A DNA stretch of 64,000 nt from Eretmocerus hayati (Eukaryota > Arthropoda > Insecta > Hymenoptera > Aphelinidae). The translations under genes and the position numbers were made by a program. The stretch lies in the NCBI GenBank assembly GCA_029851415.1, contig CM056741.1, positions 64,098,282 through 64,162,281 on the forward strand, in the 5' to 3' direction. Below, in pieces: positions 3,354-60,072 of this stretch. Numbering within the stretch: position 1 is the first letter of the stretch; every line of letters begins with the position of its first letter. The notes below the pieces were generated by a model, which saw nothing but the letters and a program-made list of their open reading frames with translations, was not told where the DNA came from and did not search any database.

Positions 3354-3785
3354 CAATTCATAACAATCAATTTTCGTAAAATTTACTTTCTATAAGATCA
3401 CCATAAAGATTCACATTCCAATTCGAATAATACCATGATTCGATGAGCTTACGCATGATGAGAATCAAAAGGATCATCTCTAAAAATTCTCCATAAAATA
3501 CAATCACGAGAGATTGGCAGTCATGATAAAAGTTTGCCCTCAGATATGGCTTCATAGCTGCGATAAACGAGCACTCGAAAGAAAAAGTAGCGAAAAATTG
3601 CGCTCACGGATGCACATGCCGACCCCTTGACCCTTGCACAACAGATAGATAAGAGGGTTGGAGGGTCCTTGCACATGGCTAGAAGAGTGAGAGAGATAGT
3701 AACGGTACAACTCGTGTGTGTGTAACACAACGGGGTTGTTACAGTGGACGACGAGCTATTGGGGCTTAAACTTTGACGTTTACAG

Positions 3786-4085
3786 ATAATGTCGTTGAGC
3801 GGGGATGTGATGCCGCAGTACAGGCAAGAGGCACCCAAGACTCCACCGCACATACTGCTGCACTACTGCGCTTTCAAGGCTATCTGGGACTGGATAATCC
3901 TCTGCCTTACGTTTTACACGGCGATAATGGTACCGTACAACGTCGCATTCAAGAACAAGACGAGCGAGGACGTGTTCTTACTCGTTGTCGACACCATTGT
4001 CGACGTCATATTCTTCATCGACATAGTCCTCAACTTCCACACTACTTTTGTCGGCGCCGGAGGAGAAGTCGTATCTGATCCTAAG
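3786..4085 (+). CDS. eag: eag exon a: pre-S1, S1 and S2
   Basis: The acceptor TTTACAG precedes 3786 and the donor AAG|GTCAGT follows 4085. It is exactly 100 codons, phase 0 at both ends. It starts [18 protein letters not shown], the conserved linker just before S1. S1 is about residues 33-53 ([18 protein letters not shown]) and S2 about 66-88 ([18 protein letters not shown]). The ATG at 3789 is internal and is not the start of translation. Confidence 0.95.
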
Positions 4086-7000
4086 GTCAGTGATCTTTAC
4101 ATAAAAATTGATTTTTCACAAGCGTCGTTTTAGAAACAAGAATAACAAATAGAAATAAAACCAATAGTCGATGTTTGGTCAGAATCCAATCAATTTTCCT
4201 TCGAATGAAAAACATGTAATTTCTGTATCAATTGAAATTTTTGAATGAATTTTGAGGAATCAAAAACAAGCCAAATTTTCTCTTGGTTGCTTTGATTACA
4301 CTGCGCAACAAAATTTTGGGTCAGAAATAATGCATTGACCGCACAATGATTTTCTAGTGTATAATTCGACGCTGAAAACGAATCCGACCTTAGTTTTGAC
4401 TCCACGCGACAGCATTTTTTTCAAATTGAAAAAAAACTGATTCTCCAAAAACAGCGTTTTTCACATTTCTCCTTCATTTGCGAATTTGAAGGTTACTTAG
4501 TCAGGGAGTAACAATTGGTCAAAATGCATATCCAATTATGTATTCATACATATTTTGGCTCGATAAATACGGTCCCGGTGGGCATGAAACGCTACAATGT
4601 AACTGTGAAGCTGTATAAGTTGATTAGTCTTCCTAGTATGTGGGAAAGAGCAATTTCGCACTAAATTTCCAAAGAATCATGAAACGGACTAGAATAGCCT
4701 AACTTAGACGTTGAAGGTCGCTTTTTCTCCGTTTATTATACTTATACTTTGAGGAAAAGAATTGTCCGTTATCCGTAGAATAAGTGGTTTGATGCCACGA
4801 ATTATTTTTTGAAAAACCTTTCTTTGCAATAATGTTTGCTGTGTTGAAATCACGAGAAGAAAAATTTCTCCTGCCACGGATTATCCAAACAAGGTTCCCA
4901 GGCGCAAATTGACCATCTGAACACAGTCGCGTAGTCACTTTTAAGCTACCACATCAGGATTTTTGTCTAGGCCGAAAATCCCTGAAAATACAGGTTTCTT
5001 GCCTCTAGCAAAAGAACCTGAATACAGGTTTCTTGCCTCTAGCAAAAGAACCTGGCGTGGTAGCTCAAAACTGACTACGGAGCCGTGTTCAGGCGGTCAT
5101 TTTTGACTCGGAAAACCAGGTTTGGATACCATGTGCAAGGGGAAATGTCTATTTTTGTGAATTTAACAAAGGAAAAATTATTGCAAGAACTTGTGTTCTG
5201 AAAAAAATTCCGTGGCATCAAACCACACTTCCTACGGGTACCAGGCAACTTTTTCCTCGAAATATATAAAAAAAGCTAAGGAAATGCGACGTCGAATGTT
5301 CAAATTGGTCCATCTTAGCCCATTTTATGATTCCTTGTAAATTTAGTCCGAAATTGGACTTGTTTACAGATACTAGGTGGACCAATTAGCTTATACGGTT
5401 TCACACTTATACTGTAGCGTTCTATAACCACCGGGATAATATTCAGCGGGCCAAATACGTAGAAAAACATATTGATATGCATTTTGACCAATCGGTACTC
5501 CCCGGCTGAGTGATCGTCAAATTTGGAAATGAGAGAAAAACGTAAAGAATGCTGTTTTTTAGAAAATCAGTTTTTTTCCAATTAAGGTAGTTGTACACCA
5601 ACTACGTGAGTCAGAGAGACTTAACCTCACTTTTTTGCCCACTTTAAAATAGTCGAAATTATTATTTTTGTTAATAACTGCACTCTTTCCACCAAACAAC
5701 AAACAAAAACGGTCATCTAAGCCTTCCTGAACCGAATCAGGCATGGTTTCCAAAGTTATCTAGCCTAAAATCAAAATCACGTGTCGCATCTTTTGCATTC
5801 TACGCTTTGTATGAACAATTACTAAAAAACGACGTGGTCCATCATCTCCAGACTTGGACATATGCTTCATTGATACATAAACTCGGATCTCTCGCAGTCC
5901 TAACATTTTCTGTTGATCAGGTTTTGCGCTAGACCCATTTTTGTGCTGTTTTTGGGGCCCGCTCCCATAAGCGCAATGTTAAAAATGTGCAAAACTGGCC
6001 AAATTGTGACGATCGATACTCTAAAACGGGATGGTCAGCCGTTTTGGAATTTTGCACACGTACTCTTCGATATTAGAACTATCTCTCTGCAGAATCTCGA
6101 GAAATTCTGTTGATGAATAATTTTGGTGTACAACTACCTTAAAAGAAATCCTGTCACGTAGGCGCAAAACTGAGGTCGGATTTGGTTTAAGCGTCGAAAG
6201 ACACACAAGAAAATCGTTGTCCGGTCAATGCATTATTTTTGACCCAAAATTTTGTTGCGCAGTGTTATCCGGCATTTTAAGATTTTGATATGGAAATCTG
6301 TGAGATAATTACACGCAAAAGATAGTGATTTTTGATATAATCGTCAGAGAGACCAGAAAGTGTCAATTTCAAGACTCAATAATTGAATATCATTCACTAA
6401 CATTGCATGATCACGATAAGATTATTGTAGTACCTAGTAATGAGACACCAACCGACTTTCATATTTGATAGGGTGTGTCATCTAGGGTTGAGTTCTTCAC
6501 GTCGAAAAGTTTAAAAAGATGTAATCTGGAAAGATCAAAGAACCAGCACAAGTTAAGTTTTTCAATGAAGGGCTATTGGATAACCAGTGAATTGTGTGTG
6601 TCAACAGGTGATAAGGATGAACTATCTCAAGTCGTGGTTCGTGATCGATCTTTTAAGCTGCCTGCCCTACGATGTGTTCAATGCCTTCGACCACGACGAA
6701 GATGGGATCGGGAGCTTATTCTCCGCGCTCAAAGTCGTCAGACTCCTCAGGCTTGGCAGAGTCGTTCGCAAACTCGACCGATATCTCGAGTACGGTGCGG
6801 CCATGCTGATCCTTCTTTTATGCTTTTACATGCTCGTCGCCCATTGGCTCGCCTGCGTTTGGTAAGTCAATACCTCAACTTCCTTGGATGACCCGAATTA
6901 TATGTAAACTTTGTCTAGTGCTTACATAATGGCCGATGAATGTTCGATGAGTCTCAATGGCTTGTAAAAAGTTCCATTTGCACAAGTACAACGGGTACCT

Positions 7001-13000: not shown

Positions 13001-16000
13001 TGTATGACTTGATCGACCTAGAAAAACCGAAACCCAGTCACTTGCTGAACACAATATAATTAAATCAAACAAGAAAAGATTGGAGTCAGGTTTACGTGTT
13101 TCAATCCCAAATCACAATACTTTCACAATCTCACTAAATCATGTTTCATTCTTCAAGCGGATCGCTTAAAAAGATAAATAATGAATGAATTCAAATCGTT
13201 GGTAATAAATCTGGCCTATATTTCAATGCTATCGATTTCCGATAAGCGGACGCTAAAGGGTAGTATGACCGAGTCTGTTAGGAGAAATCTTGCGGATTAT
13301 TAAAATTGAGCGCTGCCTCTCAAACTGCTAATTAGTTATCAGAATATATCGTTCTCGTTCCCGTGACTTTATCCGAGTAATGGTACCTTGAAAAGATTTT
13401 TTGTTCGCGAGGATATCAAAACTCAAGGTTCTCGATTCTTACTTGTAACTAATGTTAGCAACGGCGCTCCAATTATTAGAATGTCAGCAGCTCTCTATTT
13501 TGTGCTGATATAGATTCAGAAAAGAATTTCAAAATGAAAATTCGGTTTCGATCACGGGCAAACGTAATGAATATGAAATGAGTGATTCGGGAGTATTTGT
13601 ACGAAATAATACGGATTTGAGCATTGGATTCAATTTTGAATGACAACACGGAACGTTTTCAGGCTCGCGTCGGACGGCTGCTTACGAGCGCTGGCGATGC
13701 ACTTTACGATGTCGCACAGCGCACCAGGCGATTTATTGTACCATACAGGAGAGTCGATAGACTCGCTGTGCTTCATAATAACGGGAAGCCTAGAGGTGAT
13801 CCAGGACGATGAGGTTGTCGCAATCCTCGGCAAGGGTGATGTATTTGGCGACAGTTTTTGGAAGGACAACGTCGTGGGACAGAGTGCTGCCAACGTTCGG
13901 GCGCTCACCTACTGCGATCTGCACACAATTAAGCGCGACAAGTTGCTCGAGGTCCTTGACTTTTATCAGGCCTTCGCAAATTCATTCGCCCGGAACCTCA
14001 TACTCACGTACAATCTGCGCCATAGGGTGAGTATTCTATATCCTCGCATCCCTATTGAATGAAATTATATCTCAAAGATGTTCATCGTTGAGAAGACATC
14101 AAACTTGACAAGATTGAGATATACTCTCAATATTATCGTGGTAGTGAAGCACTGAGGAATAGATACATTTTTCCTCAAAGCCAAATTCCTTAGGCTCTCA
14201 ATTTTTGATTGCGAATCGCATAGGTACGGGTTATTGGGCAATGGAGCTGGAACAAATCCGCACACTGGCATTCGGGTCAAAAAAAGGAAAAATAAGAATT
14301 CGAATCTATGACGATTTGGGTGGCTATGGATAATCTCATAAAAAAAGTGAATAAATTCCATAGAGATATTATACTAATAGAGGAGGCATCATACAGCAGA
14401 GCAACGGCGTAGAAAGAGACGCCAACGCGATTCGACTTTCTCTTTCATTGCCACGGTCCCGCTGAAAAGGGGCCCATGTCTCCTCTACTGGTATAATATC
14501 TCTATGATAAGAGCTGAATCAAACTGTCTTCGTGATTACTCCCATATTTATTTTTACTGTTCGGAATATCACGCAATTCTTATTCAGAAAAGACCTTGCA
14601 TGTTGGTCTCATCTTGAAGAAGTCTATTGTGAGTAAACATGCTTTGAAAGGCCGCCATCTTGGCTCCTCGTATTTCTTATGGGAGAATTTTGAGATTCGG
14701 CCATATTGGATTTTTTTTACATCTAAAGTGACACAGAGGTTAACTCCCAACCCTGGATATATATAGGCCTGAAAAAATACTTGCCTTTTTTCGTTATAAA
14801 CGACAGGAGGGGGCACCAACCTTGAGGGTCTCCGATTCGGCGTAAACTCTTCGAATCATCTTGTTTTGGTGAGATATGAAGGGAACTCCAAGAATTTGAT
14901 TCCATGAACCTTCTACTCTGAGAATCAGCTATGAAGATAAGCATTGCCCATATAAGCCCTTGTTGAGAAATAATCATGAATATGGATATAGTATTGGCGA
15001 TGCTACCTAATCTCTATAGATGTATCTCTAGATAGGAGATCCATGGAATTAAACCCTCGGAGTTACTTTCGTTTCATACCAGAATGAGATGATTCCAAGA
15101 GTTTTGTCGAAAGCCTTGTTCCACAAAGTAGGACCTCCTCTCGTTTAAGTTGTAAATTTAATCTAAAGAGTTTTAACGAATTTTTCGAGCGTTTAGATAG
15201 GCCGTATATGCATAGAAGTAGTTTCGGTTAGTACGCTTTGATCAAGAAAGGGTTCAATATCATATGTAGATTGGTCATGCCCATATTACCATAATATAGT
15301 AAATTTCGATACACGGGTAACATTTTTTTTCGCGTTCGAGTGACGGGTTTCTGAACTATCTCAGCTTTTGAATTATCACTAGGATGCGACGAATAGTTTT
15401 TACTCCCGTGGATCGAACTACATTTTTTAATAAACTGTAAGTAAAAGTTGCCAGATTGTGCGCAAAGTACACTTTTACGCACAGTGAATAGAATAGTACA
15501 TTTCGATACAAGGGTGGAAAAACTTTTTTTCGCGTCCGAGTGTTGGGTTTCCGGCCTGAGCCGTAGGCGAAGGCCGGAATCAACACGAGGATGCGAGAAA
15601 TAAGTTTTACACCCGTGTATCGAATACTATTTTTTGACAAACTGTGAGAGAAAGTGGAAAATCAGTGCGAAAAAGTTACTTTCTCGCACAGTGTGTCAAA
15701 AAAATTATATCACACTTACCCGTGAATGTTGAGCAGACAACTTGTTCCATTCGGAGAAGTTTTTCTCAAATTAGATAACGGACCAAGTTTCGAGAAACCA
15801 TAAATAATCATAACCGATCTTCAGAATGTTTTATAGACAAAATGACTCCAGTTATTAAAAATGAAACAAATCCAGAGTCATATATCAGTGATTCCGTCGA
15901 AAGTGGGATTTTCCGTGTTCCATGTTCCCCCAAGTTTTTAAGGGTCGCGATTTGCACTGTAGCAATTTTCTGGGGTGTAATCTATTGATGCGCAACTATG

Positions 16001-19000
16001 TTAATAGTTTTAGAGACGATCCTATTGTTCCTGTATTTTGTATTGCCTGATAAAGGGCCGAAATGTCAATTCCGTCCCCTGTAGTAACCCGAAGTTAGAC
16101 CTTTGAATTCATCACGACGCATATGCAGAGTCAAAAATCCCTATGAGTAGCTATGCACTTCAATTTGTAATACTTCAAATAACATAATCCACCACTTTGC
16201 GAATCCAAATTGAGCCCTCAGCTCGAACACGGCCATCCGACATTTTGAAGACGGGTTTGCACCAAAACTGCTTGCACAGCACTTGTAAGGCCGGCAAAGT
16301 CCCCGATCGTCTATTGAGCCTTTCTAACCGATGAGGTTGATTTCCGGAAACCCAAATACACCTCTATCATGTGCAACAGCAGCCGAAAAGTCGAATCCGC
16401 ACCCAGGCGCACCACATGAACGTGTTTTCAGAATGGCTTACAAAATTTCCTGTCCTTTCCGTCCCCATGTTGTGCTCCTCCCCAACGCGCTATATCGCTT
16501 TGTGAAACACATTTTTTTGTTGTATTTGGTTGGATTAAATAAAACCTATGCGGGATAGAGTCTACGATTAGTTGTCGAGCCGTGGGAATAATTTTAGTGG
16601 CGAAATGTCCATTCCGTCCCCCTCCGTGACCCCTTAAACTCGACATATCTTTGTCCGGATTCAATTTCAAGCTACGTAGCTCGAGGTACTTCCTTTTTGT
16701 GCCAAAACAAGTGGGAACCAACTGCAATGACTCCCTAAAAGTCGTCTGGGGCTGAAATAATTTTTTGACCCAAATCACGCTCGGTGACGATTTTGGCCCC
16801 AAAAAATCCCACTTTCGGCGGAATCACTCATATACGTGTATTCCATTATTCAAACGGAATATCCTGATATTTATATCGAAGATGAAACTAGAAAAGTTCG
16901 AAAGTTATTTAAAAGAAGAAGTTTTAAAATATTGAATAGCTATTTTCGATTGCCAAAGTAAAGAAAAGTCCTTACACCCTATCCCCGAACCAATGAATCG
17001 TAGTCATAATTTGTTTTCACCATACTCTTATTCTTCATAATATTCAGTAACAGATTGAATAAAATCAAAATAGTATGTAAACCATAGGAATCGGTTATCT
17101 GATCACATATCTCACATACTTGAGTTTAAACATCAGGTTAAAAGCTCAATCTCGAATTGAGTAACAAACAACAATAATAGGAAACAGATACACACTTTTC
17201 AGACGTAAAGGCCGTTTTGTAAGATCACGAGGGGCTTTCAAAAATATTCGTTCTTGTCACTGAATTCAAGTAATTATCATTCATTATGAAGTTTTTAAAA
17301 CTTATATTCATAGCTTTCGATGCTATCTTGTACAGAATTCGATGATCTGAAAATTTATTCATAGAAACTATTATCTACTTCACGTAGAAAATAATTACCA
17401 ATCCAAAAACGATCGTTTGAATCAATCACATTCTTACAAAAATTCTATGCCCGCTTCATGTGTCTGAACAGTTTTTGAAGATACACAGAATACTTTCTTC
17501 ACTCACAATATATATCTATTTACACTTCTCATGATTATCATCGTTTCGTTCATCATAGATCTTGAACATTACAAAAAAATGTAATCTTCATAAGGAAAGT
17601 TTTATCAGGTTATCCAATGACTTTCACATACCTCTTTGAGAAAATTTTGCAGTAGAAATATTCTACACACCAGCACACGACGTTTCAACGTTTCAAGATA
17701 CAAGACCCATAATCGATGCAATGAATAATAATATTTCAAAATATTCAACGCCCGGCAAGCAAGACACTCATTCCATAGTAAAACACTTCATCAAAAATAT
17801 ATCGAAAACATCAGATACAGTATCTTCTAAGTCGATATAGATATATATATATATGTATATCGGTCACGACGTAATTCAAATGACTGATTCATATTTACAT
17901 CAAAAGTTCCAAGTGACTTTCAAGAGTCATTCCTTCGTGGAAACTACGATGAAATTCGGTGACCCATGACATCAAGAACAGATTTTTCGATAAGACTCAT
18001 TCGTCGCACCTTATACTGTTCAAAAATGTTTTTTATAGCGAGCGAACATTTTACACGCATCACACAAACTAGCAAGCTTTTTTGTCTCATGCATGCTGCA
18101 GTTTTCATTTTGATGAGTCGTCAGGGTACTGGGAAGTGGTCAACTTTGAACCCCATCAGATTGAAAAAGCTCAAAGTAATATTTTACTTTAATGTACAGT
18201 TGTCCCACGTTATACGCGGTAGTGAATTCCAATAAGGGTACCGCGTTTAAGAAAACGCGAATGCTGAAAAATTGCATCTGTGGAGAAACTGAGGTTTCCC
18301 TTCATAGCTCAAGTGAACCACGTTTAAAGAAACATTACGCCCATGGAAAAGTGAGGGTTCTAATCTTCTCATACGTATCAGAACCGCGAAATCGGAGATC
18401 CATCTCTGATTGACTGGAAGAAATGTCATCATGATTTCCTCCTCAACAGAATATTTTTTGTTTTTCGGAGCCACTTCAAATTTTGAAAACTGTGCTTCAA
18501 AGTTCAAGAACAAATATTGCCAAGGATTTAGTTAAGTTCGGTGATATACAGCAGAATCGTCAAAAATGAAGTGAAGCTTATACATGAAAACGATTGATAC
18601 TGAAAGTTGTCATCCCACAAAAAACGAATCTTCAACATTCCTCCATAAGATAAATTGATCAAGCAATTATTCAACAAAGCGTATACACATATATTCTCGC
18701 AATTGAGTCGAACCGCGAATATGTCGAACCACGTAAAACGACGGATGACTGCATTCAAGCATTCATCCCACATGAAACGCTTCTTCAATAACAAAGTTTA
18801 TGACATAATTTCATTGCTATGCACGAATTCAATGATGATTTTCTTTTTCAAAATAAGATGGCTCAATAAAGAGTCAAATTCTTTGTATCATATCATCCCC
18901 AATCAAGGTAAAAGGCATGATTGAAACTTCCCCAAACCTAGATTGAAGTTTACCCTCTTGTGAGACTGATAAAGTGATCAGTGACTCACAGAATTCATTG

Positions 19001-22000
19001 TCATTATCAGACTTGAGTCAATGCTCCTGAGATATCTTAAGATCTAGCTACAAGGTTTACACTTTAAGGATCAGATGAGTCTTCTCAAAAGAACTCCAAT
19101 ACTGTGTCGGATAAGATGTAATATATGTTAATGACTATTTCTTCTCTCTTAACCCTTCACTGTGCATTTTTTTGCCTGATAACTCCAAAAGAACTTTTGA
19201 TGTGGGATCCTGATCTAAAATTGACCTTGCTTCTCTTTCTTCTTCATCAGGTTCAGGAACAGGACCGACACCCCAAACTTCACAATGTTTCACTTTGAAA
19301 TTTTCTTTGCCACTCAACTGTATGTAATTTTGAAATGTTGTACATGAAATACTTGACTTTCCAGAACCATATTCACAATCTAGCCAAAGCCCAGGGTAAC
19401 TCAGCTGACCCCCCATCAATAACCCATTTGGCATTGTTTGCTGGTGCATGTTGAGGTACTGATAATGTGTATTATACCCAGTGGCTGGAAAAGTCAGTAT
19501 TCGCGGTTCTAATTGGAATAGAAAACAGGACTGATTTCCTGCAAAGTTTGGTGACAAAGTCCAGTTATCCGAGGCAAAACCACCAAAAACATGATCATCA
19601 TTGTCTTGGAGTATCAATATTGTGGCTCCTTGCAAAGTTATTCTCCCCAACATGGTAGAGAAAGATTCTCCATGCACTTGACTAGAGAAGAGAAATCGCC
19701 ACTCATTACGCAAAGCATGAGGTAAACTGAGGTTGAGGAACAGAACATCACCTAAACCAAGAATACTCGGGAAATGAGGAATGTTTTCTAACCCCTTGCA
19801 GAGAGGCAGCAAATTCAATTCGTTGATTCTTGTAGAAATATTTTTGTCACCCTTCTTCTGGGATATGAGAAACAAACATTGGAATACGTGTGATTGAATA
19901 TCTTTAAATGTGGCTGCTTGACGAAACCAAACTTCGACTTGATCAAAGGTCAGAACTTCTCCATACTGTACAAGCTCTTCACATAAAGTACGTGATCTCA
20001 TATTAATCCTACGCTTATTCACAGTGCACCCTATACTACTCCACGAGAGGAAATGTGAATTGGCACAGTTTTTTTGTAACGTCAAGTAAGAATTGATTGT
20101 AGCTTGCAGGTATTGTAGAAAATTTGCAGTGGGTATTTCATACTTTTGCTCTTCTTCCGAAAAGCCTGTAAATATCAAGTTTGTCCTCTCGTCTGGGCTG
20201 CCTCTAACAGTGTAAGCGTACAGTCTGCCAAAGCTCTCTCCGTTCACAGCAGATACTCGCTTACCTGGCTCATGACATAAATATCGTACAACGAACTGTA
20301 ATAGTGCATCGTCAAGGTGGACAGACCAATGTTTGAAGATATCTTCACGTTTGATAGAACCTGAGCTGCGAGACATTGATTTGAATAGGTTTTCCACCAA
20401 AACTATCTCCTCTGAAGACAGAATATTTGAGGAAGCAGAACGGCTTGATGACCCGTGCCCCATCTAGAATATTATACATTTTTCGTGAATAAAAAGATGC
20501 TCCACTTTCTTAGAGCAGATAACAGTCAAATTTACAAACCTTGACACTTGTGCTCCATAAACTCTTTCTCAGACAAGCACAACCAACTCAGATTCTTTCA
20601 CCTCATTGGTTGCGGCGCAAATCACGAGTGTGAAACGTCGTCAACGAAAACGATAGATGACATCACACTGAATATTATAGCTAAGAGTATTTGTATTTCG
20701 CTCATTTCTCACTGAGCTCGGAATGTTTCAGACTTTTTGAGTGCGTTTTAGTTGGTTTTAGTTGATAGTCGTCTGCTGCGTGTGACGTTTCTGCCACAAA
20801 CACAACACTCGAGTTCGAGTCTCTTCCTCTTCTGCTATCGAACGGAGAATTGTGAACTGATGCGCATGCGTTGACACCTGTAATAGATTTTCAACTTGCT
20901 GCAAAAGCTAAAGCTGCAAGCTCCACCAAAATTGATCCTCTATAAACTCCCGACCCCCCGCCGATCACCCATTCATCATTGTCGCATTTGACTTGAATCG
21001 ATTGCTCGATCTACTCCAGCTCCATGTAAGACCACGGGCGTTGTAGAAAGTCATTTGATTTTTAACTCTTGTAGAGCTCAAAAATTTAGTAGACGAATCA
21101 ATTCCAAAGTTTCAGCTGATGAATTTTGATTATGATGAGATGATTTGCATGCAAAGGATATCAATAGGGGTAATTTCTCTAGTATTTGCGCTTCGTGGAT
21201 TGATTCAATGCACTATTATATGTTAGAACTTCATTCAAGAAGTATAATGGAATTCTGGGGGGCACTTATTTCGATTAATTCGAAATGATGAATTGAATTA
21301 TTCGGGCGGGGATACCCGTATCAATGGGGTCTTGAAATTGTACATAAGTAACTCGCCAGCAAGGCGCTGCCGCGCCTTTTGACTGACATTAAGTCATTCA
21401 ATAATATTGAAATAATGATTATCAATTCTGAATCCTAATTTTTGTCGCTTACCAATCTGAAGACATTGATTTCTCTTTTCTTAGCTCATTTTTCGGAAAG
21501 TTGCTGATGTTCGAAGGGAAAAGGAGCTCGCTGAGAAGCGGAAAAACGAGCCTCAACTGGATCAATCGCAAGATCATCTTGTGCGAAAAATATTCTCAAG
21601 GTAAGATTTGTAAAGCAATTTTATAATATTGCATGATGACAATTTAGAACCTTTCTTCCATAAGTCGATGTGAATCATACAAAATCATATTGCAGTAATG
21701 TGGAACTATTGATTGTTTTTCCTCTCTTCCTATACAATCGAACGGGAAGACTATCTATTCTATGAGAAACTATCTTCATTGATTAATTGTCAATAATTTT
21801 ATGAGTTCGTAAATGTATACAATTATGGGATTGACGTTAGTTAATGTTGTGAAAGTGACGTAAGAAGAAATGATAAATTGGAAATCTAATCAATTACAAG
21901 AGTTGCTACTGAAACTAAAATGAGTGTATTGACATGAAAAAAAAATTGATGTAAATGCATACCTACAACAGAAGATTGAGGATCGAAGGAGAGCCGCAGA

Positions 22001-41915: not shown

Positions 41916-42480
41916 ATCCCGTGAAAAAGTGTTTGGTACATGATCACGCATGACCGTGTACCGCTCGTGGTACATGATCACGCATGACGGCGTACCGAAA
42001 ATGGCGGTACGTCGTCATGCATGAATTATGCATGACCATGCATGAACTATGCATGACCATGCATTGTATAAACTAGTGAACATACCGTCAATTATTTGCT
42101 ACTCCGGTGATCACAAAATGATCTTGGGTTGTGAATCAATCCAAAAATTTCTTCACTCTCTTTCTTTTATTTTATGTCTTAATATAACTTCAGCTCGAGC
42201 TTCAGCTAGACTATTATAATGAATTGTCAATACTTAGAGAATAAGATATACATATGAATGATACAACAAGAACGATAATATTAATAGGAAATCAATAACG
42301 TGATAGGAATTTGGGTAGAGCTCCACCCGTGATAAAAAATTAACTTGATAATTTGTGAAAGAAAATTTGTGATACAATCATCACTATGAAATCCATGGTG
42401 TGATTATACTGTGATTATACACAACACTTTGCCTTCATTGATCTCAAATTTTCTTTACTATGGCGTAAGGAAGCAGAGTC
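41916..42480 (+). repeat. Left terminal inverted repeat of BEN element
   Basis: It contains two imperfect hairpin units beginning GGTACATGATCACGCATGA (about 41937 and 41970), a third unit with GGTACGTCGTCATGCATGA, and an array of ATGCATGACC / ATGCATGAAC palindromes to about 42065. A TATAAA follows at 42067. The innermost match to the right arm is the block around TATGGCGTAAGGAAGCAGAG. Confidence 0.88.
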
Positions 42481-42674
42481 CGATAAGCACTGAGTAAACA
42501 TTGGTGTACATACAGTAACAAATTACCACTCAAGTAATGAGGCCTTGTTTGTCAGAGTAGTCAAAGTAATATCCATTCTTCAGAATGAAGAAAATACTAT
42601 TTCAGACATTTTTTTGAATGATTTAGAATAAAAGCCGTCTTACTGGTGAATTAAAATTGATCATTTGAGTAGAT

Positions 42675-45600
42675 TCAAGGAATTTCGTACTTGAAAGGTT
42701 TGCCCCACTTTTGCTCTGCGTAGTAGGCAACTCTGATATCCGTCACATTTTGTGACATCCCTCTTCTTATGTTTGAGTCACTCATTTTTGGCCAGTTCTT
42801 GATTTCCTCTGCCTTTCTTTTTGTAAACGCTGTTATCAATAAAAGTAGTATCAATAGAATAGTTGAAATCAAACGAGTTACTCCATCAAAATTTTGAGTC
42901 ATAAACAGATGACTCTGTACATACCTATAATTTCTTGCACCGCTGGACCATACAAAACTCCTGCCTTGAAACTATCTGGGGCTTCAATCTGTCTAGTCTG
43001 TCTCAATTGGCATTGTTCGCACAAGCTTGGTACTTCGCATTGATGAGGTCTCCTGGCATTTTTTTGTGAAAAGTTACAGTGCAAAATTGCGTCTAGTGTG
43101 AAGACACCTCTCATCAGCTTCCTGCAGCACTGACGAGGGTTAGTCGAGCTCAAAGCGTAATCGACTGTACTTTCTTTGCAGAAAATTCCATTTCCAAGTT
43201 CGCTCATCTGAAAATATGAAACATTCGGGATAAACTCCTAAATATGCCAAATTTTTCACCATGAAACATTCACTTGAATGAGAGACTTCGGATACAATAG
43301 CAAAAAAATACAGATTTGAAAACTTTTCAAATCTTCAGATCCTCTGGTTCCTCTCGAAAATGATCGATTGCATAAAATTACCACATTCCAACAAAAGTGG
43401 CGTAAAAATTAAACCGGAGTGTGGATACACGGATATGATGCTTAAGGGAAATTATGATGAAAAAGTTCAGAATCAACTCGTATAAACTATTTCGATTTTG
43501 TTGGCTCATAATCCCTGAGCCATGACCCTAAGTGAACTGTCGTTTTGTCAGCTCAAAAATTTGAGTGACACATTAAAACACGCCTCAGGGAATTTCGCAC
43601 TGACCGTGTCAGACAGATTTACCTTTGATCCTTCGCAATTTTCTCCAAACAGCTGCTCGTGCACAATTGGAGCATAACCAGTTGGGAGTTGGGTTTCAAG
43701 TTGAGATCTATTTTGATTATTTGAAACTTCCTGAGTTTGAGTTCTTGTAGATCTGTTTCTAGTTCTAATTCCATCATCTTCGTTTCTTAAGACTCCTGGA
43801 GATTCTGCAATGAGCAAAACGTCCGATTGAATTGATGGATATAATAACTTGTGATAAATCTCAGAAAGTTGAGAGAAAGCAATACGAAGACGAAATATTT
43901 AGTGTCCTCGTGGGGCGACATTACCTTTGAACTGATTCGGGCTTATAGCTCATAAATCAATATTAAAACGAGCATTAATTTGTGAAAGAGGATGGAGATC
44001 GTTGCAAAAATTTGTATTATTAAAATTCGGTCCTGAACAATATTTGGATTTCCTTCAGAGATCTGAGCACTGTAGATTCACAATGTTCTCCTAACGCTTT
44101 GAATGTTTTGAACATAACTACCAACTTAATGGAAGTTTGCAAATTGAAAACTTCCATCTACCTCACGTCGCCACATCTCAAAAACTAATACAAATCAGAC
44201 TCGAGAGTTGTCAGAGGAATCCATCACTATATGGTCATTTCTTATGCACTGTTTCTAAATAATTTCATGGGGAATAGTCCGGTCGTTACTCCGCAGAGAC
44301 ATATGAAATCATATTGCTTGAGCAAAGATTTGTTGAATGAAGCTCACCTTGATAATTTAGCTCCTGAGTCATTAATTCATCTTCATCGGGGTCTGAGGAT
44401 ATACTATTCTCATGAAATGAGTTCCTCTTTCGGACCCTCTCATCGGGTTTAGTATTGTTGTTGATTCTGCTTGACCTTCTCAGGATAACTGATGAGCCTG
44501 AAAGTCATCAAAGTATCATAAGCATGATCCCAGCAAATTTTGACTAACCACAGATCGACTTATTGTCGGACATTTAAACTCATTTCCGATCTTCTGTTAA
44601 TCTTAGAAATTGAAGGATTAAACTTGGTATCTCTGTATTTAAATATCTTTCAAATCAATAGCTGGTAATGAGATGATGTATGCCACGAGTACATGAAAAA
44701 GATCAACCTACCCAGTCAATCCACATTAGTTTTGGTTTAGAAGCAGAATTTTCTGAAGATTTCAGTATGTCAGAAAAAGTTCACAAGTTGAGCCTGTGTT
44801 TTATTATCTCATGACCTCATCACTTCTCTCAATTCGATCGAAGTGAGGGATTTTCGAGCGTATACATCAAACCGTTATAGAGCTTCTTTGAATCTTACCT
44901 GATTGATTTTTCTCGACGTTATCCTGACTGTGACAAGATGAAGTGTTTGCCTCATTTCTGATTCTTTTCGAAGCAGGACCATCATTTCTCTTGGCAGAAG
45001 AATTATAGCCTTTACGTTTCAAATTAGCTTGGTTCTTATTTTTGGCAGGACTGGGTTGATCAGAGTCAGGATCACATTCAAAATTCATCACATTGGTGGA
45101 ATAGCTATCAAGCTCATCATTATCATAAGAATCTTCTTCTGCATGACGGGTGTCCTGCAATGACGCTATTTGCCGCTGGATAGCTTGTTCAGCTCTCTGT
45201 GTTTCTAGCTCAATCTACAAGAAATCAAGAGAAAAATATGACACTACTTGTAGAATACCATAAATTTCACTTGGAGGGTGAATAATTCGATTGAAAAACG
45301 CACGAGAAAGAACACCACAATTCCTCAAAAAGTCATTTAGATTACCACTGGACATAATTTGATATTGGGCTACTCGACTTCTAGAATTGATTGCTACAAA
45401 TTTTTGAAAAATTCATTCCCCTTTTAGCGTGGAGGAGGTTTTACATCAATCTGAGAGTTCATCTTTGAAAATATCTTACCTGTTCAATGGCACTGTATTG
45501 TACATCTTTACCTCGATTACATACTTGTCTAGGTACTTTTGATGGTTTAATCAATTTTCCCGTCAAACCCTTCTTCTCTGGAGTATTTTGAGACACTTTT

Positions 45601-45913
45601 CTTTGAGCCAGCAATAGATAGGTCTCTTTTATTAATTCCAGATCATCTATAAAAATTGCACTCATGACTATTTCGCGTTCTACTAGTTAATCTTTAAAAA
45701 AAAATCGTCTTCACAGGAACGGAAAAATTATGAGGTCAATATATTTCGTATGTCATGCTCACCAGAATAGGTCAAAACTTTGCCAGTGTAAATCGAATTC
45801 AGGTAACGAAATTTGACGATGCTTCCAGGTTTCACAGTTTTGTGGTCGCAAAATACATTATCGTTCCGTATTTCACAAATATCACCGTCCTCGATACATT
45901 TAATGATGTACAT
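42675..45913 (-). CDS. BEN-domain-like protein encoded inside the TIR element
   Basis: Minus-strand join: 45763-45913, 45480-45646, 44899-45214, 44348-44497, 43623-43804, 42925-43207, 42675-42829. The exons total 1404 nt, giving 467 residues plus TGA. All six introns are GT-AG with matching phase. There is an in-frame TGA just before the ATG, so the start is firm. The N-terminus (residues 1-65) resembles small beta-barrel modules (KPGSIVKFRYLNSIYTGKVL). Residues about 107-126 are Gln/Glu-rich and helical, 134-160 acidic, and 172-192 a basic NLS-like stretch with KRK and SKRIR. From about 323 to 455 it resembles a BEN domain (ELGNGIFCKESTVDYAL, CCRKLMRGVFT). BEN domains bind DNA and chromatin and occur in animal factors and some DNA viruses. 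There are no stops or frameshifts, so the gene looks functional. Its position between TIRs suggests it acts on the element. Confidence 0.85.
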
Positions 45914-46000
45914 GATAATTCAATTGAGAATCACGCGATGTGCCAAACGCATGAACAAATTTGCAAGGTTAACGGGAATGAACTGATCGCTTCGCAACGC

Positions 46001-46548
46001 ACTCTGCTTCCTTACGCCATAGTAAGAAAATTTTGAGATTTATAAATTTCGACCACACTATGGATTTCATAGTGAAGAATGTATCATATTATGAAAGCTG
46101 TATGTCTTTTTTTCACAAATTATTATGTTAATTTAGTTTGTCGGGTGTAAATAAACCCAAATTCCTATCACGTTATTGATTTCCTATTAATATTATCGTT
46201 CTTGTTGTGACATTCCTATGTATATCTCATTTTCAAAGTATTGACAAACTCATTTCCATTAGGACTGTCTAGCTGAAGTTATGTTAAGACATAATAAAAG
46301 AAAGAGAGTGAAGAAATTTTTGGATTGATTCACAACCCAAGATCATTTTGTGATCACCGGAGTAGCAAATAATTGACGGTATGTTCACTAGTTTATACAA
46401 TGCATGGTCATGCATAGTTCATGCATGGTCATGCATAATTCATGCATGACGACGTACCGCCATTTTCGGTACGCCGTCATGCGTGATCATGTACCACGAG
46501 CGGTACACGGTCATGCGTGATCATGTACCAAACACTTTTTCACGGGAT
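46001..46548 (-). repeat. Right terminal inverted repeat of BEN element
   Basis: Reverse-complement counterpart of 41916-42480. On the minus strand it supplies TATAAA at 46397-46392, about 480 nt before the BEN gene ATG, so this arm probably holds the promoter and 5' UTR of the gene. The inner end lies less than 100 nt from the ATG. Confidence 0.88.
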
Positions 46549-48150: not shown

Positions 48151-49954
48151 ATATGGGCGGCTCCGGATCAGAACGGTATAAGTCCATTTTTTTCATTTCT
48201 GGAAAATGCGCCTCAAAGTTTTTGTGATATGGAAAATTCGAGTTATCATCTGAAGTAAATATTCTTATTCTACCGTGTAGTGAGTGTGTTTTCATGCCAT
48301 TTTTCGCGTGGGGCGTATTGATTTTCAATTGTTTACACTTTTTACATCTCATTTTGCAATAAAAAATGGACTTATACCGTTCTGATCCGGAAAATTTCTC
48401 GACTTTTTTTCCGGATCAGAACGGTATAACTCCACCATTTCTGAAAAAAATTCACATTTAATATATTAGATCGGGAGAAGTAGTTGATATGATGAATTTT
48501 TACCGTTTGAAGTAGGAAAATGTCGAGAAACTATGAGTTTCCACCTTTGAGATCAAAAAACATTAAAAAAACCACGGACTTATGTCGATTTGAGCGAGAA
48601 AAAAGGTGGAAAAATTTTCCAGATCAGAACGGTATGAATTGAGAATTCTTTGGATTTTTAATGACTGTCCTCGACTTTTTCTCGCAGTAAAAGAAATTCC
48701 TCTCTAATTTAGGATGACTTTTATAAAATCTCATTGACAGCCGAGACTGTTCTTCGCAAAGAGATCTCATTCAGGATATCGTGACTAAGGATATATTTCC
48801 AACATTGAGGTCAACAAGCGTCTATTTGGAAATCCAGTCAAGAAGAATTTACTCAAGCGGCCCGGTGCGAATTATAGTTTTTGGGGATCACATAGCACGC
48901 AGCTTTACGTCATGGATTCAGAGGCAATTTGAGGCTGTATAGGAAAAATCGCAATGCAGAGAATTCAATCGACCAGGGAATCCAAACGATGAATTGGGAC
49001 TGATCCCCACTCAACAAACAGAATTGTTGATCAACCGTAGAATGAGGTTAAGATTAGTTGCAGCTATCTCAATTCAGGAAGGCGAGCAGGAAGGCTATCT
49101 TCATCTATAAGATTTGCCCAAATGAGGTTCACTTGTACCGAGTGGCGGGGAGATCGAACCGAAGGCCGGGTGACTGTTAATGAAAAGAGCCCCAGTTGAT
49201 AGATCACAACCATTCATAGTGAAATTGTAACCGAAATTCTGTAATGAAGCTATAGGCTTTCTCTACCATTGGCATTTTTCCTAAGGAGGAAGGGCATAGC
49301 TTAGTTGAGTTTGGCGTATTACGGACGCAGTTGATTTTTCTTCAGAGAAGATGCCTGAAAACATGATACAAAATCAAATTTCTTTGCAAGCTCAGTGCCG
49401 ATCGCTCTCACAACTACGCTTTTGGGACCATCACTAAGAAATTCGGCTCTTTCAATGACGATAAGAGATAAGAAAATGAGACTTCAGGGCTTCTAGAGAA
49501 AGATCCCAGGCCCATGGGAGTACTGACCCGAGGTTGTTCATTTTCGTAAGGGCTTGCCTGTGTCCAAATGCGTCAAAAGGAAGTGATCGGACGTCGGCCC
49601 ACCTCGTTCGAAACCATTCGATGCAATCATTTGGACAACATAGCGAACCTAACTTGTAGTTTCTGAGAGTAGCTACGACTTCTAACTATGCATAAAAGCA
49701 CGACAAATGAACGGGGAAGACCCAAAAGCGATATTATTGAGCGAGAACATGGACTTATACCGTTCTGATCCGGAAAAAAAGTCGAAACTTTTTTCGGGAC
49801 AAAAACGGTCGTGTCGCTTGTGATGCCTCAAAATGCATTTCTACTTCCGGAGTTGTGCATACATGTTTTCACATGTATTTTCTATCGTTTCCCGTCAAAA
49901 ACTCAATTTTCACCAAAATGGACTTATACCGTTCTGATCCGGAGCCGCCCATAT
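48151..49954. mobile_element. 1.8-kb TIR element with internal motif copies
   Basis: The ends read ATATGGGCGGCTCCGGATCA and its reverse complement. The TIR motif TATACCGTTCTGATCCGG recurs inside in both orientations, at about 48370, 48410, 48630 and 49755. Flanking ATAT occurs on both sides but is palindromic, so a target duplication is ambiguous. No transposase frame. A related motif (GTACCGTTCTGGTCCGGGTC) occurs alone at about 12500. Confidence 0.8.
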
Positions 49955-55059: not shown

Positions 55060-58000
55060 TCAATCGTCGGTCTCATCAAATTGTACGAGAATTATTAAGT
55101 ATGTAGTTATTGAGCCAATCATCTGAAAATACAAATACAAATTTAATTCGTGAGTAAATCGAATTTCATCTAGAGCATGTTATACTCACAGGCAGCAACA
55201 GAGATTCATCCAGTGAAAATATATCATATACAGTAAACTTCAATTTCTTGTGCAGTAGGTAGTTCGAAAACTGGTTCAGCTATCAAGAAAAGAGAAAACA
55301 TTGATACACATGTGTCTCAAAATGACCAAAACCATGAAATTTTAAGATAACAATGCTTGTATGAATATGTGCTGTGAGTCTGTGAGACATTGCAAGATTG
55401 GATGTAAAAGGCTGGAGAGAAAATCACTTACGAGGGGAGCACCAACCTTGCGGGCCCTAGATCTTGACGAAACTTTGGGAATCTTCTTGTTTTGGTGAGA
55501 AATGAAGGTACCCAAAAGGCTTTCGTCCATTGGGGCTCCTATCCTGAGAAACGGCTAATGGAGGTTAGCATTGTCAGTATATTCTATATATCAGTGATTC
55601 CGTCGAAAAGGGGATTTTCCGTGTTCCACGTTCCTCCAAGTTTCCAAGGGCCGGGACGCGCACTGTAGCAATTTTCTGGGGTGTATTCTATTGGTGCGCA
55701 ACTATGTTAATAGTTTTGGAGACGGTCCTAACGTTCCTGTATTTTGTAGTGCCTGGTAAAGGGTCCAAATTTCCATTCCGTCCCCTGTAGTAAACCGAAC
55801 TCGGACTTTTGAATTCATCACGACGTATATGCGGAGTCAAAAATCCCTACATGTAGCTATGCACTTCAATTTGTAACACTTCAAACAACATAATCCACCA
55901 CTTTGCGAATCCGAATTGAGCCCTCAGCTCGAACACGGCCATTCGACATTTTGAAGACGGATTTGCACCGAAACTGCTCGCTCAACACTAATTAGGTCGG
56001 CAAAGTCCCCGATCGTCTATTGAGCCTTTCTAACCAATGACGTTGATTTTCAGACATCCAAATACACCTAATTCTTGCGCGACATAAACCGAAACTCAAA
56101 TCTGCAGCCAGGCGCACCACATAAACGTGTTTTCAGAATGGCGTACAAAATTTTCTGTCCTTTCCGTCCCCATGTTAAGCTCCTCCCCAACGCGCTCTAT
56201 GGCTTTGTGAAACACATTTTTTTGTTGTATTTGGTTGGATTAAATAAAACCTATGCGGGATAGAGTCTACGATTAGTTGGCGAGCCGTGGGAATATAATT
56301 AAGGCGAAATGTCCATTCCGTCCCTGTCCTTTCCGTCCCCCTCCGTGACCCCTTAAACTCGACATATCTTTGTCTGGCTTCAATTTTGAGCTACGTAGCT
56401 CTAGGTACTTCCTTTTTGTGCCAAAACAAGTGAAAATTACCTAACTGCAACGACCCATCAAAACTCGTTTGAGGCTGAAATAATTTTTTGGCCGAAATCA
56501 CGCCCGACGACGATTTTGGCCCCAAAAAATCCCACTTTCGGCGGAATCACTCTTATACGACTTTTCAACATGGGCCTTTATGGACAATGCTAATTTCCAT
56601 AGCTGTATCTCGGAATAGGAGGTCCATTGGACAAAACCCTCCCGTGTACCTCCATTTCTCACCAAAACAAGAAGATTCTCAAAGTTTCGTCAAGATCCAG
56701 GACCCGCAAGGTTGGTGTTCCTCTTGTTAGTGGATCGTGAGAATATAACACGGCTTGGATAAGATTTCGCTCCTTCTCTTATCGAGGCATTTTCTGACCG
56801 AAAAGTGCCACGCTGAAAAAAGCAGATCTAATTTTTGATGGAACCTCCTCGATTATCATTACTTTCGATCGGGGTAGAGGGTAAAAAGGCTTTGTAATTC
56901 TATTTCATAAAAAATTTCAAGTGAACTAAATCTTCAAACCCGTTCTCCGAGGCTTTACAAGAGATTTGAAAAATCGAGCACCTGACACGCCGTGAACGAT
57001 ATGTTAATGAACAAGGGTAAGATCTCGTGCTAATAATTCATCAGGAAGTGACACATTATTGAATTGAAGAAACGTGATACATGTTTGCATTAGTTAAAAC
57101 TTGCACAGTTTTTGCTTTTTCCTCGCGATTGTCTCGATTTTTATTAAACTTGCCGCTTTTCTTCCGGCATTTCGGATCATTTCACAGATTTCTGAGTCGG
57201 AAGCTGACCTTGAAGCAGGAAAATGATCCGAAATACCAGCTTTGAAGTTTAGAGGAAGAGATAGTTTTCATCATGATTGCACTATCTCACTCTGATCCTC
57301 GTAAAGGGCTTATGAAACAAACGATCATTTTGTGCGTACAATCAAATAAAATAAAATATGTCAAAACGACTCGTCATTTTTCATTGAAAACTGGATAAAC
57401 GTATCGTAATTATACTAAGGTAAATGTACCCAACTTGCCTCTGTACCCAACTTGCCCCCATATGCCGATCTCGGGGATGGGCACTCCTTGGTCTCTCGGC
57501 AATTTTTTTTACGTTTGCTATGTTGAAATATGAGAAAGTAAGCAGTTTGCGTCGACCCCGAATCATTCCTGCGTTCTCCAGAAAATCTAAAGTGATTTTT
57601 CTATTTTTCGTGATCGCTCAGCTAAGAAAGCACCGAGGGAATCGCCTTCAGTAAAATCTGTGCCAAATTCTTCGAGTTCAATCAATTTTGACGTACCTTA
57701 GCGCATTCAATTCCTTGTTCCAAGACCTTCAAAATTCATTCTTCAAAATTGCAAAATTTGAATATGGAGCTGTTTTATGTGCAAAACACGGAGACGATTT
57801 GTAAACAAGGATGCCAACATCGGAGTGTACCTAACATACCCCCATATGTTTATCTTGAAAGGGCATGCAGGCCGACTTCTTTCACCATTCAGAACGTGTT
57901 TATCACGTCAAAATGGGTCAGAAATAGTGTTTCGAACCACCGAAAAGCTCCAAATGTGCGTGCATGGCGATAAAAACACTTTATCGCCGATTTCCATCAT

Positions 58001-59518
58001 TTATTTCGGAAGAATTGAGACAGTTTGGCTCCAATTGATTCAAATTGGACGTAATTTAGTGCATTTTAAAGGTCTTTGAACAAGCTTCAAAATGAGCTAA
58101 AGCACGTTGAAAATCGTTGAAGTAAACCAAAGTAATTAAGAAAAAGGCTTAATGGGGGCAAGTTGGGTACACACTTTTGTAAACTCTCAGAAATCACCTT
58201 TTGGGAGAATCATAACAGTTTGGCTCCACTTGGTTCAAATTGAATGTACCTCAACTTATTTCGAAGGTCTTAAGACAAGTTTTAAAATGAGCTAAGGTAC
58301 GTTGGAAAATATGGAGATGGGCCAAAGTTATTAAGAAAATGGCTTAATGGGGGCAGGTTGGGTACACTGACCTTACTTATAAACATCATACATTTTCAGT
58401 CATGCGAGGGTCATCGAAATTCCCAAGACATTCGCTGATAACCAATCCTGTTCTCCTGCTCTGTGTCACAAATAAAAATTTTGTATCAATGTTAGTTTCA
58501 AGGAGTACATACATCAATTGCTGAAATCAAAGATTAAGAATACTACCTCGGCAATTGTTGCTGTCGCAGAACTCATCAGAACGATCAGCATAACGAAATA
58601 AAGGATCAGAAAACTACACAAGTTGAGATATACTACGCCAAATTCACTCAAATTTTCTAAATTGATAGTTCTACTAGTATGGTAAGTACGAACAGTCACC
58701 ATTATAAATATATCTGCTATAGCCAAAAGCATTGATAGGGAATAAAAATCGGATACATCTTGCGAGGTGTTCATTAAAATTATGTACATCTTACGCAAAC
58801 GGGAGAATTCATACCGTTTAAATCGTAAGTTTATAATCTTGCAAGTTTGAAATTTGGAATATCCGTCAGACAGTCTCAGCAGTTTATCATTGATTACTTT
58901 AAACAGTTGTTGAATCAATCTGAGGACAATAGTATACTGTATAATCATACAATTGATAACGATATGTCTCAGATATACGCTGATCTCAACGATGATGGAA
59001 TCCTCATAGTTCATTTGTTCTGTTGAACACAGTAGAATCCATGCCAAAAAGTTCATCCCGATGATTATTGATATTCTTCTCTGTATTACAATGCGTTCAT
59101 ATTTCACTCTATCATTGTCCAGTGAACATAGCTCTCTGATTGAAAAAATTCTGTTCATGATTGCTATTGATTTTTTTTGGGTGACACAAAAAATTGTTAG
59201 AATAGATATAACAATGCAAGCACTAAAGATATCTGTTGCAAAACTTATGATCTCCGTAAGTCGTGATGTCTTTTTACCATAATCATAATGCTTATTTCTT
59301 ACTTCAAAATAGCTCATTGTAGCTATTAAGAGTATCAAAAATATATTGTAGATTATTCCGGATCGCGATGTCTTGAATGACCACTGTCTCACTCCTTCCT
59401 CACTAACATTATCAAAATGAACGTCCGTCGTTGCTACCCCAAATATTTTATACATTCCAAACAAGCTCTTTATGTAAAATGTCTCTTTGAAATCAAATTG
59501 ACTAATTGTATCTTGCAT
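55060..59518 (-). CDS. Insect gustatory receptor (7tm_7 family), complete
   Basis: Minus-strand join: 58547-59518, 58392-58460, 55190-55279, 55060-55122. It gives 324 + 23 + 30 + 20 = 397 residues plus stop, the usual length for the family; all introns are phase 0. Gustatory receptors are ligand-gated cation channels of chemosensory neurons with seven membrane segments and a cytosolic N-terminus. Hydrophobic segments are seen at about 54-71, 89-112, 149-166, 178-204, 259-281, 293-318 and 374-396. The family signature is clear in the short 3' exons: QFSNYLLHKKLKFTVYDIFS, then TTYLIILVQF matching TYxxxxxQF. Intron 55280-58391 is 3.1 kb and swollen by two TIR elements. The exact subfamily and ligand cannot be told. 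Confidence 0.9.
55431..56730. mobile_element. TIR element (~1.3 kb) in the receptor intron
   Basis: GAGGGGAGCACCAACCTTGC at the left pairs with GCAAGGTTGGTGTTCCTCTT at the right. The inverted arms continue through GATCTTGACGAAACTTTG and TTCTTGTTTTGGTGAGAAAT. Inside is a copy of the 950-bp element, so this is a nested insertion within gustatory receptor intron 55280-58391. Confidence 0.8.
55585..56556. mobile_element. ~950-bp TIR element, copy B (nested)
   Basis: Same ends (AGTGATTCCGTCGAAA... and CTTTCGGCGGAATCACT) and the same order of internal blocks as 15881-16835, with scattered substitutions. It carries a short internal duplication of TCCGTCCC near 56315-56340 not present in copy A. Confidence 0.8.
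57416..58375. mobile_element. GTGTACCCAAC TIR element (960 bp)
   Basis: Ends follow TAAGGTNANTGTACCCAAC. Internal directly repeated blocks (TTCAAATTG, CAAGCTTCAAAATGAGCTAA, GGCTTAATGGGGGCAAGTTG) occur about 190 bp apart. Its right end lies 16 bp from the donor side of receptor exon 58392-58460. Confidence 0.75.
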
Positions 59519-60072
59519 TGCTGTGAGCTTTACAGATCAGATTCTTTCCTAATGTGAGAATGGGCAATCACGCGAATTCGATTGAGGAACTGTTGTAGAG
59601 TAACACCCGTTATTGTTTTACGAAAGTGATTTTTATTTTTTTCATAGAAAATGGAGGACTAGCTTTCAGGTTCTGTTCGAGTCCGACTCACTCGCTTGCT
59701 TCCGATATAGATGACTGCACTTGCGTATAAACATGGTAATTGATTACCCAATTTAGCTCATGTCGAGTATTGAAGAATTTCCATCCAGTTTGTTGACTGG
59801 TCGAGTTCGGATCACGTGTTTATTTATCCGACTATTTATTCAAACATTCATTCTTGTGAAGCATAATTACGTTTACACATTGACTCACTCTTATTCTAAA
59901 AATTGTTTCTTTCATTCAATGTTGACTCACAAAAAGCTCACACGTAGTTTACCTGGTTTCATATTATTCTTCCAATAACTAAATAGTCTCCTGAGTATGC
60001 ATCGAAGACTATAGTAAGATCCAATTAATGCAACAAGAAGTATTAGCATCGATTGATGTTTTATAAACAAAT

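Follow-up and report, generated by a model that had tools for sequence, protein, structure and literature searches.

Introduction

The closest described counterparts of the element reported here are the plant CACTA transposons, in which the tnp2 protein TnpD is the transposase, and TnpA binds subterminal repeats; transposition depends on the pair, and deletion derivatives can obtain both proteins in trans (PMC2613891). In the CMCT clade, the transposase has C(2)C and H(3-4)H motifs between the second D and the last E, and most elements have CA..TG termini (PMC12730594). PHIS/ISL2EU elements duplicate AT within A/AT/T, usually have GG ends, and encode a THAP transposase and a YqaJ protein (PMC4482050), while BEN domains constitute a large gene family in bracoviruses (PMC4574769). 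We analyzed 64,000 nucleotides of Eretmocerus hayati DNA (Hymenoptera: Aphelinidae), referred to in the following as the window, which contain a 4.6-kb element with terminal inverted repeats (TIRs) and a single gene, BEN1, predicted to encode a BEN-type protein. We consider it likely that the element belongs to a tnp2 (CMC-type) lineage, as a non-autonomous member shortened by internal deletion, and that tnp2 would act on it in trans and BEN1 would play a TnpA-like part.

Structure of the window element and its genomic copies

The genome searched was the E. hayati assembly (692 Mb, 17 contigs), in which the window lies at C1:64098282-64162281. The element proper extends over positions 41918-46546 of the window (4,629 bp), has CCCGTG...CACGGG termini, and is flanked on each side by a 2-bp target-site duplication, AT. 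The arms at 41916-42171 and 46293-46548, 256 nt including the target duplication, are 100% complementary; the outer 254 bp of the TIRs thus match perfectly, and homology extends inward to ≈42482 and ≈45998 (84% over 583 columns in a gapped alignment), giving arms of ≈550 bp. This alignment confirms the first-pass annotation, made from the sequence alone, which had described inverted repeats of this length enclosing a gene and no transposase; for the window copy, the absence of a transposase is correct. The features are as follows, with L numbers denoting other loci in the assembly:

41916-41917, no strand: left copy of the target-site duplication (AT); AT at both ends here, TA/TA in the other 6/6 close copies
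41918-42482, plus strand: left TIR; 84% identity with the right arm across 583 columns, outer 254 bp identical
41936-41961, plus strand: subterminal palindromic unit 1, of the form GTAC-18-GTAC and a candidate site for BEN binding; the window has this pattern nowhere outside its two TIRs, and offset 19 recurs in L018 and the L049/L050 termini
41970-41995, plus strand: subterminal palindromic unit 2, of the form GTAC-18-GTAC; its offset, 53, recurs in L049/L050 and in L021
42675-42829, minus strand: BEN1 exon 7, end of the putative BEN-type domain and stop; rebuilt gene, intact in 7/7 copies
42925-43207, minus strand: BEN1 exon 6, bulk of the putative BEN-type domain; rebuilt gene and domain comparisons
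43623-43804, minus strand: BEN1 exon 5; rebuilt gene
44348-44497, minus strand: BEN1 exon 4; rebuilt gene
44899-45214, minus strand: BEN1 exon 3; rebuilt gene
45480-45646, minus strand: BEN1 exon 2; rebuilt gene
45763-45913, minus strand: BEN1 exon 1, N-terminal module of ≈50 amino acids, start codon at 45913; 46% identical over 54 amino acids in the 16.7-kb element
45995-45997, no strand: putative internal deletion junction; the 20-kb relative has 15.3 kb here (tnp2 and BEN2), identical junction in 6/6 copies of 4.6 kb
45998-46546, minus strand: right TIR; alignment to the left arm
46469-46494, minus strand: subterminal palindromic unit 2, right arm; pattern search
46503-46528, minus strand: subterminal palindromic unit 1, right arm; pattern search
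46547-46548, no strand: right copy of the target-site duplication (AT); flank comparison of copies

When BEN1 was rebuilt exon by exon on the minus strand, it comprised seven exons, six introns that are all GT-AG, and 467 codons, exactly reproducing the gene model proposed earlier. A protein database search identified the annotated E. hayati protein QAD02_004000 (P0001) as 98% identical to the window BEN1.

The left TIR was then searched against the same genome. Scoring covered the best 40 of 213 candidates, which makes the copy counts lower bounds. At least seven arms, that of the window included, were 99-100% identical to the window left TIR, each with an opposite partner arm. Six of the seven copies (window included) were 4,626-4,629 bp long, and the seventh was 20 kb. 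The two bases flanking each copy were identical in 7/7 cases (TA in six, AT in the window copy), a three-base match was never seen, and among the 1-kb flanks no flank of one copy matched any flank of another. The window copy was 98.5-98.6% identical to four other short copies, which were 99.7-99.8% identical among themselves; the fifth, in opposite orientation, differed from those four by 0-2 bases in the coding sequence. BEN1 was open, with the same splice sites, in all seven copies. As judged from the sequences, this is the pattern of a family spread by dispersed, recent transposition. The first-pass annotation had named a single-copy locus as the outcome that would speak against a transposon, and had proposed a TIR search of the same genome; that search returned further copies with both ends, and the gene has at least six further copies in E. 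hayati.

The outer TIR identity extended over 247-254 bp in the six short copies and 188 bp in the 20-kb copy, with strongly diverged inner parts. This combination of outer identity and inner divergence looks like the result of gene conversion of the ends.

The 20-kb relative and a probable internal deletion

In the 20-kb copy, sequences corresponding to positions 1-4080 (98.8% identical) and 4078-4629 (98.6%) of the window element bracket 15.3 kb of extra DNA. This DNA holds an open tnp2 frame of 819 amino acids, matching PF02992 (Transposase_21/tnp2) with 29.2 bits against a cut-off of 28.6, and a second BEN-type gene, BEN2, annotated as QAD02_015841. The motif residues of the frame, chosen by eye without alignment to known transposases, occur in the order D265, D352, C371-x2-C374, H595-x4-H600 and E620.

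The TIR-proximal homology of the element runs past the junction into the extra DNA, no terminal repeats belonging to the 15.3 kb were found, and a separate 16.7-kb element, described below, has the same three genes between its own TIRs. For these reasons, we interpret the short form as a deletion rather than the 20-kb form as an insertion. Since the junction sequence is the same in 6/6 short copies, a single deletion event most simply founded them, and the coding changes among the short copies probably postdate the deletion. The structure, the copies, the target-site duplications and the common junction are the observed part of this account of deletion followed by spread.

A second full element and the association of BEN genes with tnp2

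The independent element at C1:9016430-9033110 measures 16.7 kb by its ends and has 289-bp TIRs at 98% identity, CCCGAG..CTCGGG termini and a CA/CA duplication. It contains a relative of BEN1 whose seven exons are arranged in the same way (442 amino acids, 42% identical), an open tnp2 frame of 834 amino acids (60% identical) and a BEN2 relative; its two ends were read as sequence, and the gene content of its middle comes from genome matches.

The association was then assessed genome-wide. The tnp2 search, in which 55 of 740 candidates were scored, gave 52 merged loci. Two BEN queries were merged into 35 loci; 31 of 80 rows were kept from the first, after dropping 49 exon rows of seven near-identical genes, and 46 of 52 from the second, after dropping six short-copy rows and keeping that of the 20-kb copy. 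A BEN match was present at most 15 kb away at 15 of the 52 tnp2 loci: 10/21 loci at ≥45% identity (close) and 5/31 at ≤35% (distant). Random placement gave means of 0.03 and 0.05, with a maximum of 2 in 2000 trials. With the first BEN query alone, 10/21 close and 0/31 distant loci had BEN nearby. All 20 BEN loci near tnp2 fit one layout, with BEN1 divergent upstream of tnp2 and BEN2 in line downstream (12 lie upstream of tnp2 on the strand opposite to it, 8 lie downstream on its own strand, and none is placed otherwise). The matches at the five distant BEN-linked loci were weak (E 0.03-0.22), and their identical scores and spacing indicate that they seem to be copies of just two elements. Stop-free open tnp2 frames are present in the E. 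hayati genome.

BEN2-type matches, the best of them 38-71% identical, were also found more than 15 kb from any scored tnp2, at C2:65422725-65423864, C1:199224306-199224530, C3:150287388-150287850 and C4:95669781-95671468; those at C2:65422725 and C2:65423427 point away from each other, ≈0.5 kb apart. Such tnp2-distant matches may be BEN2-only derivatives.

Relationship of the encoded proteins to BEN domains

The first-pass annotation called the window protein BEN-like and proposed profile searches for a BEN domain and for a hidden nuclease. The window protein had no Pfam BEN match at E ≤ 10 and no nuclease family match. The label thus has no Pfam support on the protein itself; it is supported through its relatives. 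BEN1 and BEN2 were 34% identical over 97 columns (E 5e-11), BEN1 having an insertion of ≈20 residues relative to BEN2. The C-terminal part of BEN2 matched PF10523 below the cut-off, at E 0.00099, and the full annotated protein at E 0.0057. An open piece at L051, beside a distant tnp2 locus, scored 31.8 bits for PF10523, above the cut-off of 23.2, and an open piece from the other distant element scored 12.6 bits. When compared by hhalign, a profile of BEN1, BEN1-b, BEN2 and BEN2-b gave probabilities of 96.5 against L051 and 94.3 against L052 (0/100 shuffles each), and the window BEN1 alone gave 77.9 against L051 (0/100 shuffles) and 3.4 against L052 (2/100). Through L051, the window protein is therefore homologous to a protein with an above-cut-off BEN match.

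Comparisons with known BEN proteins were mixed. The four-protein profile beat 100/100 shuffles for BEND6 and Bsg25A and was not above the shuffles for NACC1 and BEND3 (36/100 and 89/100, respectively, reached the score). By BLASTP, P0001 gave an in-domain alignment with a BEND6 segment (single-comparison E 0.014), and P0002 gave no in-domain alignment with BEND6. A PDB sequence search with the window protein had no match, the four-member profile matched only two TBK1 chains there (E 1.8), and profile-profile comparison with a hand-made BEN alignment gave a probability of 1.9. AlphaFold2 models were of low confidence, with mean predicted local distance difference test (pLDDT) values of 38 for the window protein and 43; a Foldseek search with a low-confidence model returned four rows, of which rows 1, 2 and 4 were the NACC1 BEN domain (E 2.3-9.0). 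We read the window protein as carrying a diverged BEN-type domain. The element proteins share a putative C-terminal BEN-type domain with the BEN-domain proteins BEND6, Bsg25A, NACC1 and BEND3 (PF10523), but the window protein lies below Pfam detection. Compared by layout only, bracovirus BEN proteins also combine a C-terminal BEN domain with a short N-terminal module encoded by exon 1, but their genes have 3 exons, as opposed to 7 here (PMC4574769).

Three protein searches, sensitive to relatives with common 5-residue words, found only two E. hayati proteins and no relatives in other species, and a scan of viral contigs found no BEN1 relative.

Classification

Several properties fit the CMC/CMCT group. 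A tnp2-type DDE transposase is encoded by the 20-kb relative, outside the window; its 819-amino-acid frame has C(2)C and H(4)H; and target duplications in the expected range of 2-5 bp flank 7/7 close copies, the one 16.7-kb element, and 5/7 members of a second family (family 2, below). CACTA/EnSpm in the strict sense was ruled out by the non-CACTA ends and by a duplication of 2 bp, not 3 bp. We expect the elements to work as a two-component system of the CACTA type. Since they lack CACTA termini and the 3-bp duplication, we assign them only to the wider tnp2/CMC clade, where they form a lineage of its own, not yet assigned, whose accessory proteins are of BEN type.

Compared with the described CACTA/En-Spm two-component system (PMC2613891), the elements similarly combine tnp2 with a predicted DNA-binding protein, have repeated subterminal motifs forming palindromes, measure ≈17-20 kb, and have deletion derivatives that would be moved in trans. 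They differ in their CCCGTG/CCCGAG ends, 2-bp instead of 3-bp duplication and long TIRs, and in encoding two DNA-binding proteins of predicted BEN type, one to either side of tnp2. With ESTA and other CMCT lineages, compared by description only, they share C(2)C and H(3-4)H, the TA duplication of ESTA, and an extra non-transposase gene; those lineages, however, are fungal, their extra gene is a TET/JBP dioxygenase, and their CA..TG ends are absent here (PMC12730594).

ISL2EU/PHIS, suggested by the AT duplication of the window copy and by a THAP-like frame in a relative, was ruled out, as the duplication is TA in 6/7 copies, the ends are CCC, and the THAP frame belongs to another element. That frame, L028:3814-5342, scored 15.6 bits for PF05485, below the cut-off, and lies in a separate element inside a family-2 copy; the THAP-like element also occurs at three other places (L043, L045 and L047), with its own TIRs of ≈191 bp at 2/4 places.

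Family 2 (L018-L020, L023 and L025-L027, on C1, C2, C3 and C4) consists of noncoding elements of 3.5-4.6 kb with both ends, TIRs of ≈613 bp (96% in L018), interiors of simple repeats, and matching 2-bp flanks in 5/7. The outer ≈144 bp of these elements are 79-82% identical to the window TIR. They were rejected as the source of an autonomous element: simple repeats make up most of their long frames, and one further inner frame searched, L018:4165-4512, has no Pfam match.

Subterminal palindromes and proposed mechanism

Two GTAC-18-GTAC palindromes, with offsets of 19 and 53, lie inside the first 80 bp of the ends, and both offsets are common to the window family and the 16.7-kb element (L049/L050). 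The exact unit occurs at 19 only in family 2, and two more distantly related elements have a single unit, L021 at 53 and L017 at 55. The pattern was derived from these same ends; within the 64-kb window it was found only in the two TIRs, with a mean of 0 in 100 shuffles.

We propose the following. Full elements, of 17-20 kb, are ordered TIR, BEN1 (outward), tnp2, BEN2 (outward), TIR. An internal deletion removed tnp2 and BEN2; the shortened element, 4.6 kb long, retained the TIRs at its two ends and an uninterrupted BEN1 gene, and then spread. By analogy with the plant system, tnp2 from intact relatives would move this element in trans, and BEN1 would bind the GTAC-18-GTAC palindromes as an end-binding partner, helping and/or regulating transposition. 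BEN1 is most likely a TnpA-like, sequence-specific DNA-binding subunit. The earlier suggestion, that a transposon encodes nothing but a BEN protein and is mobilized in trans, agrees with the dispersed near-identical copies, the 2-bp duplications, flanks that are unrelated to one another, and the existence of a relative that has these termini and tnp2; its movement in trans is presumed.

A further comparison bears on the retention of BEN1. When synonymous and non-synonymous changes were compared between the window BEN1 and each of five other short copies by one-sided Fisher tests, each class numbered 8-9 changes, against 287-288 synonymous and 1113-1114 non-synonymous sites (p 0.003-0.012).

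Weighing of the proposed model and its alternatives

Several observations weigh against this model. Neither the window BEN1, at E ≤ 10, nor its relatives BEN1-b and the BEN2-b fragment match Pfam BEN. The selection test counts few changes, its five comparisons are non-independent in sharing one common branch, and the window BEN1 differs from the 20-kb copy by 5 synonymous and 8 non-synonymous changes (p = 0.11). Private substitutions number 31 for L011, 25 for the window and 22 for the 20-kb copy; the lineages of the window, the other short copies and the 20-kb copy are thus nearly equidistant, and these counts fit more than one date for the deletion and more than one order of events. The 819 amino acids of the tnp2 frame are a stop-to-stop length. 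The ends, CCCGTG..CACGGG and CCCGAG..CTCGGG, are not CA..TG. Finally, 11/21 close and 26/31 distant tnp2 loci have no BEN match nearby, and 15/35 BEN loci lie more than 15 kb from any scored tnp2, as do the six short copies, which are not counted among the 35.

The alternative closest to the proposed model, and overlapping with its "helps and/or regulates", is that the BEN protein represses the transposase in trans or competes with it in cis, as in a defective interfering element, rather than helping transposition. A transposase-less copy that keeps a predicted DNA-binding gene is what a self-regulating derivative is expected to look like; however, four of the five other short copies, compared over their whole length, are 99.7-99.8% identical to one another, indicating recent movement despite the gene. 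We regard this as a real possibility, if not the favored one. It is hard to credit that the BEN protein is itself an unrecognized transposase, even though it is the sole recognized gene product of the element and most of its length has no assigned fold: a same-ended relative has a tnp2 frame with a complete motif set, and no nuclease family was matched, with a structure model (mean pLDDT 38) too poor to exclude one.

Two further alternatives concern the origin of the element. The 4.6-kb form might be the original and the 20-kb copy the product of a 15.3-kb insertion carrying a foreign transposase, as would suit the 3-bp overlap at the junction and the finding of only one 20-kb copy of the window family (hence at least one) among the best 40 of 213 candidates. 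We find this highly improbable: the extra DNA has no terminal repeats that we could find, its edge continues the TIR-proximal homology, and the BEN1-tnp2-BEN2 layout recurs inside the independent 16.7-kb element and at other tnp2 loci. The other is that a host BEN gene was captured between the repeats of an unrelated transposon, in the manner of a Pack-MULE, or by an old inverted duplication, as the first-pass annotation had allowed. Animal BEN proteins are host chromatin factors, which favors capture. E. hayati is among the species reported to have MULEs, and hymenopteran MULE TIRs reach 514 bp, which also favors it (PMC13359780). Against this, BEN genes recur beside tnp2 in one layout, and MULE target duplications are 8-10 bp, as opposed to 2 bp here. 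The 15/35 BEN loci away from any scored tnp2 may yet include a host paralog. Because of this recurrence in a fixed layout next to a transposase, capture is unsupported and, in our judgment, quite improbable; a MULE or Pack-MULE origin in particular was ruled out by the 2-bp duplication together with the tnp2-bearing parent.

Implications

In the literature searched, whose coverage lacked most subscription papers, we found no work pairing a BEN domain with tnp2 or EnSpm, and BEN genes beside a tnp2 transposase appear to be a new pairing in that sense. On the proposed model, BEN domains, known from chromatin regulators and bracoviruses, would be tied to a mobile element that encodes them beside its transposase, and such proteins would gain a testable role in the recognition of transposon ends. 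In an animal, the element would parallel the TnpA/TnpD pair of plants while using another type of binding protein, and the origin of the BEN expansions in insects and wasp viruses would become testable by cross-species comparison of elements. A much broader proposal is that BEN proteins are the TnpA equivalent of an animal tnp2 lineage, that "binding-protein-only" parasites persist under selection, and that such elements were a mobile source of BEN genes for insects and for bracoviruses, whose BEN proteins have a like arrangement of N-terminal module and C-terminal domain; this is speculative and, as a whole, unlikely.

Other features of the window

A 40-bp perfect inverted pair at 48151-48190 and 49915-49954, 1.7 kb apart and with several near copies of TCCGGATCAGAACGGTATAAGTCC in between, is perhaps another TIR element. 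A direct repeat of ≈970 bp (88% identity) occupies 15880-16836 and 55586-56559. Two long open frames on the minus strand encode a TLDc domain (19135-20463, E 1.7e-41) and a 7tm_7 chemosensory receptor (58514-59536, E 1.7e-20).

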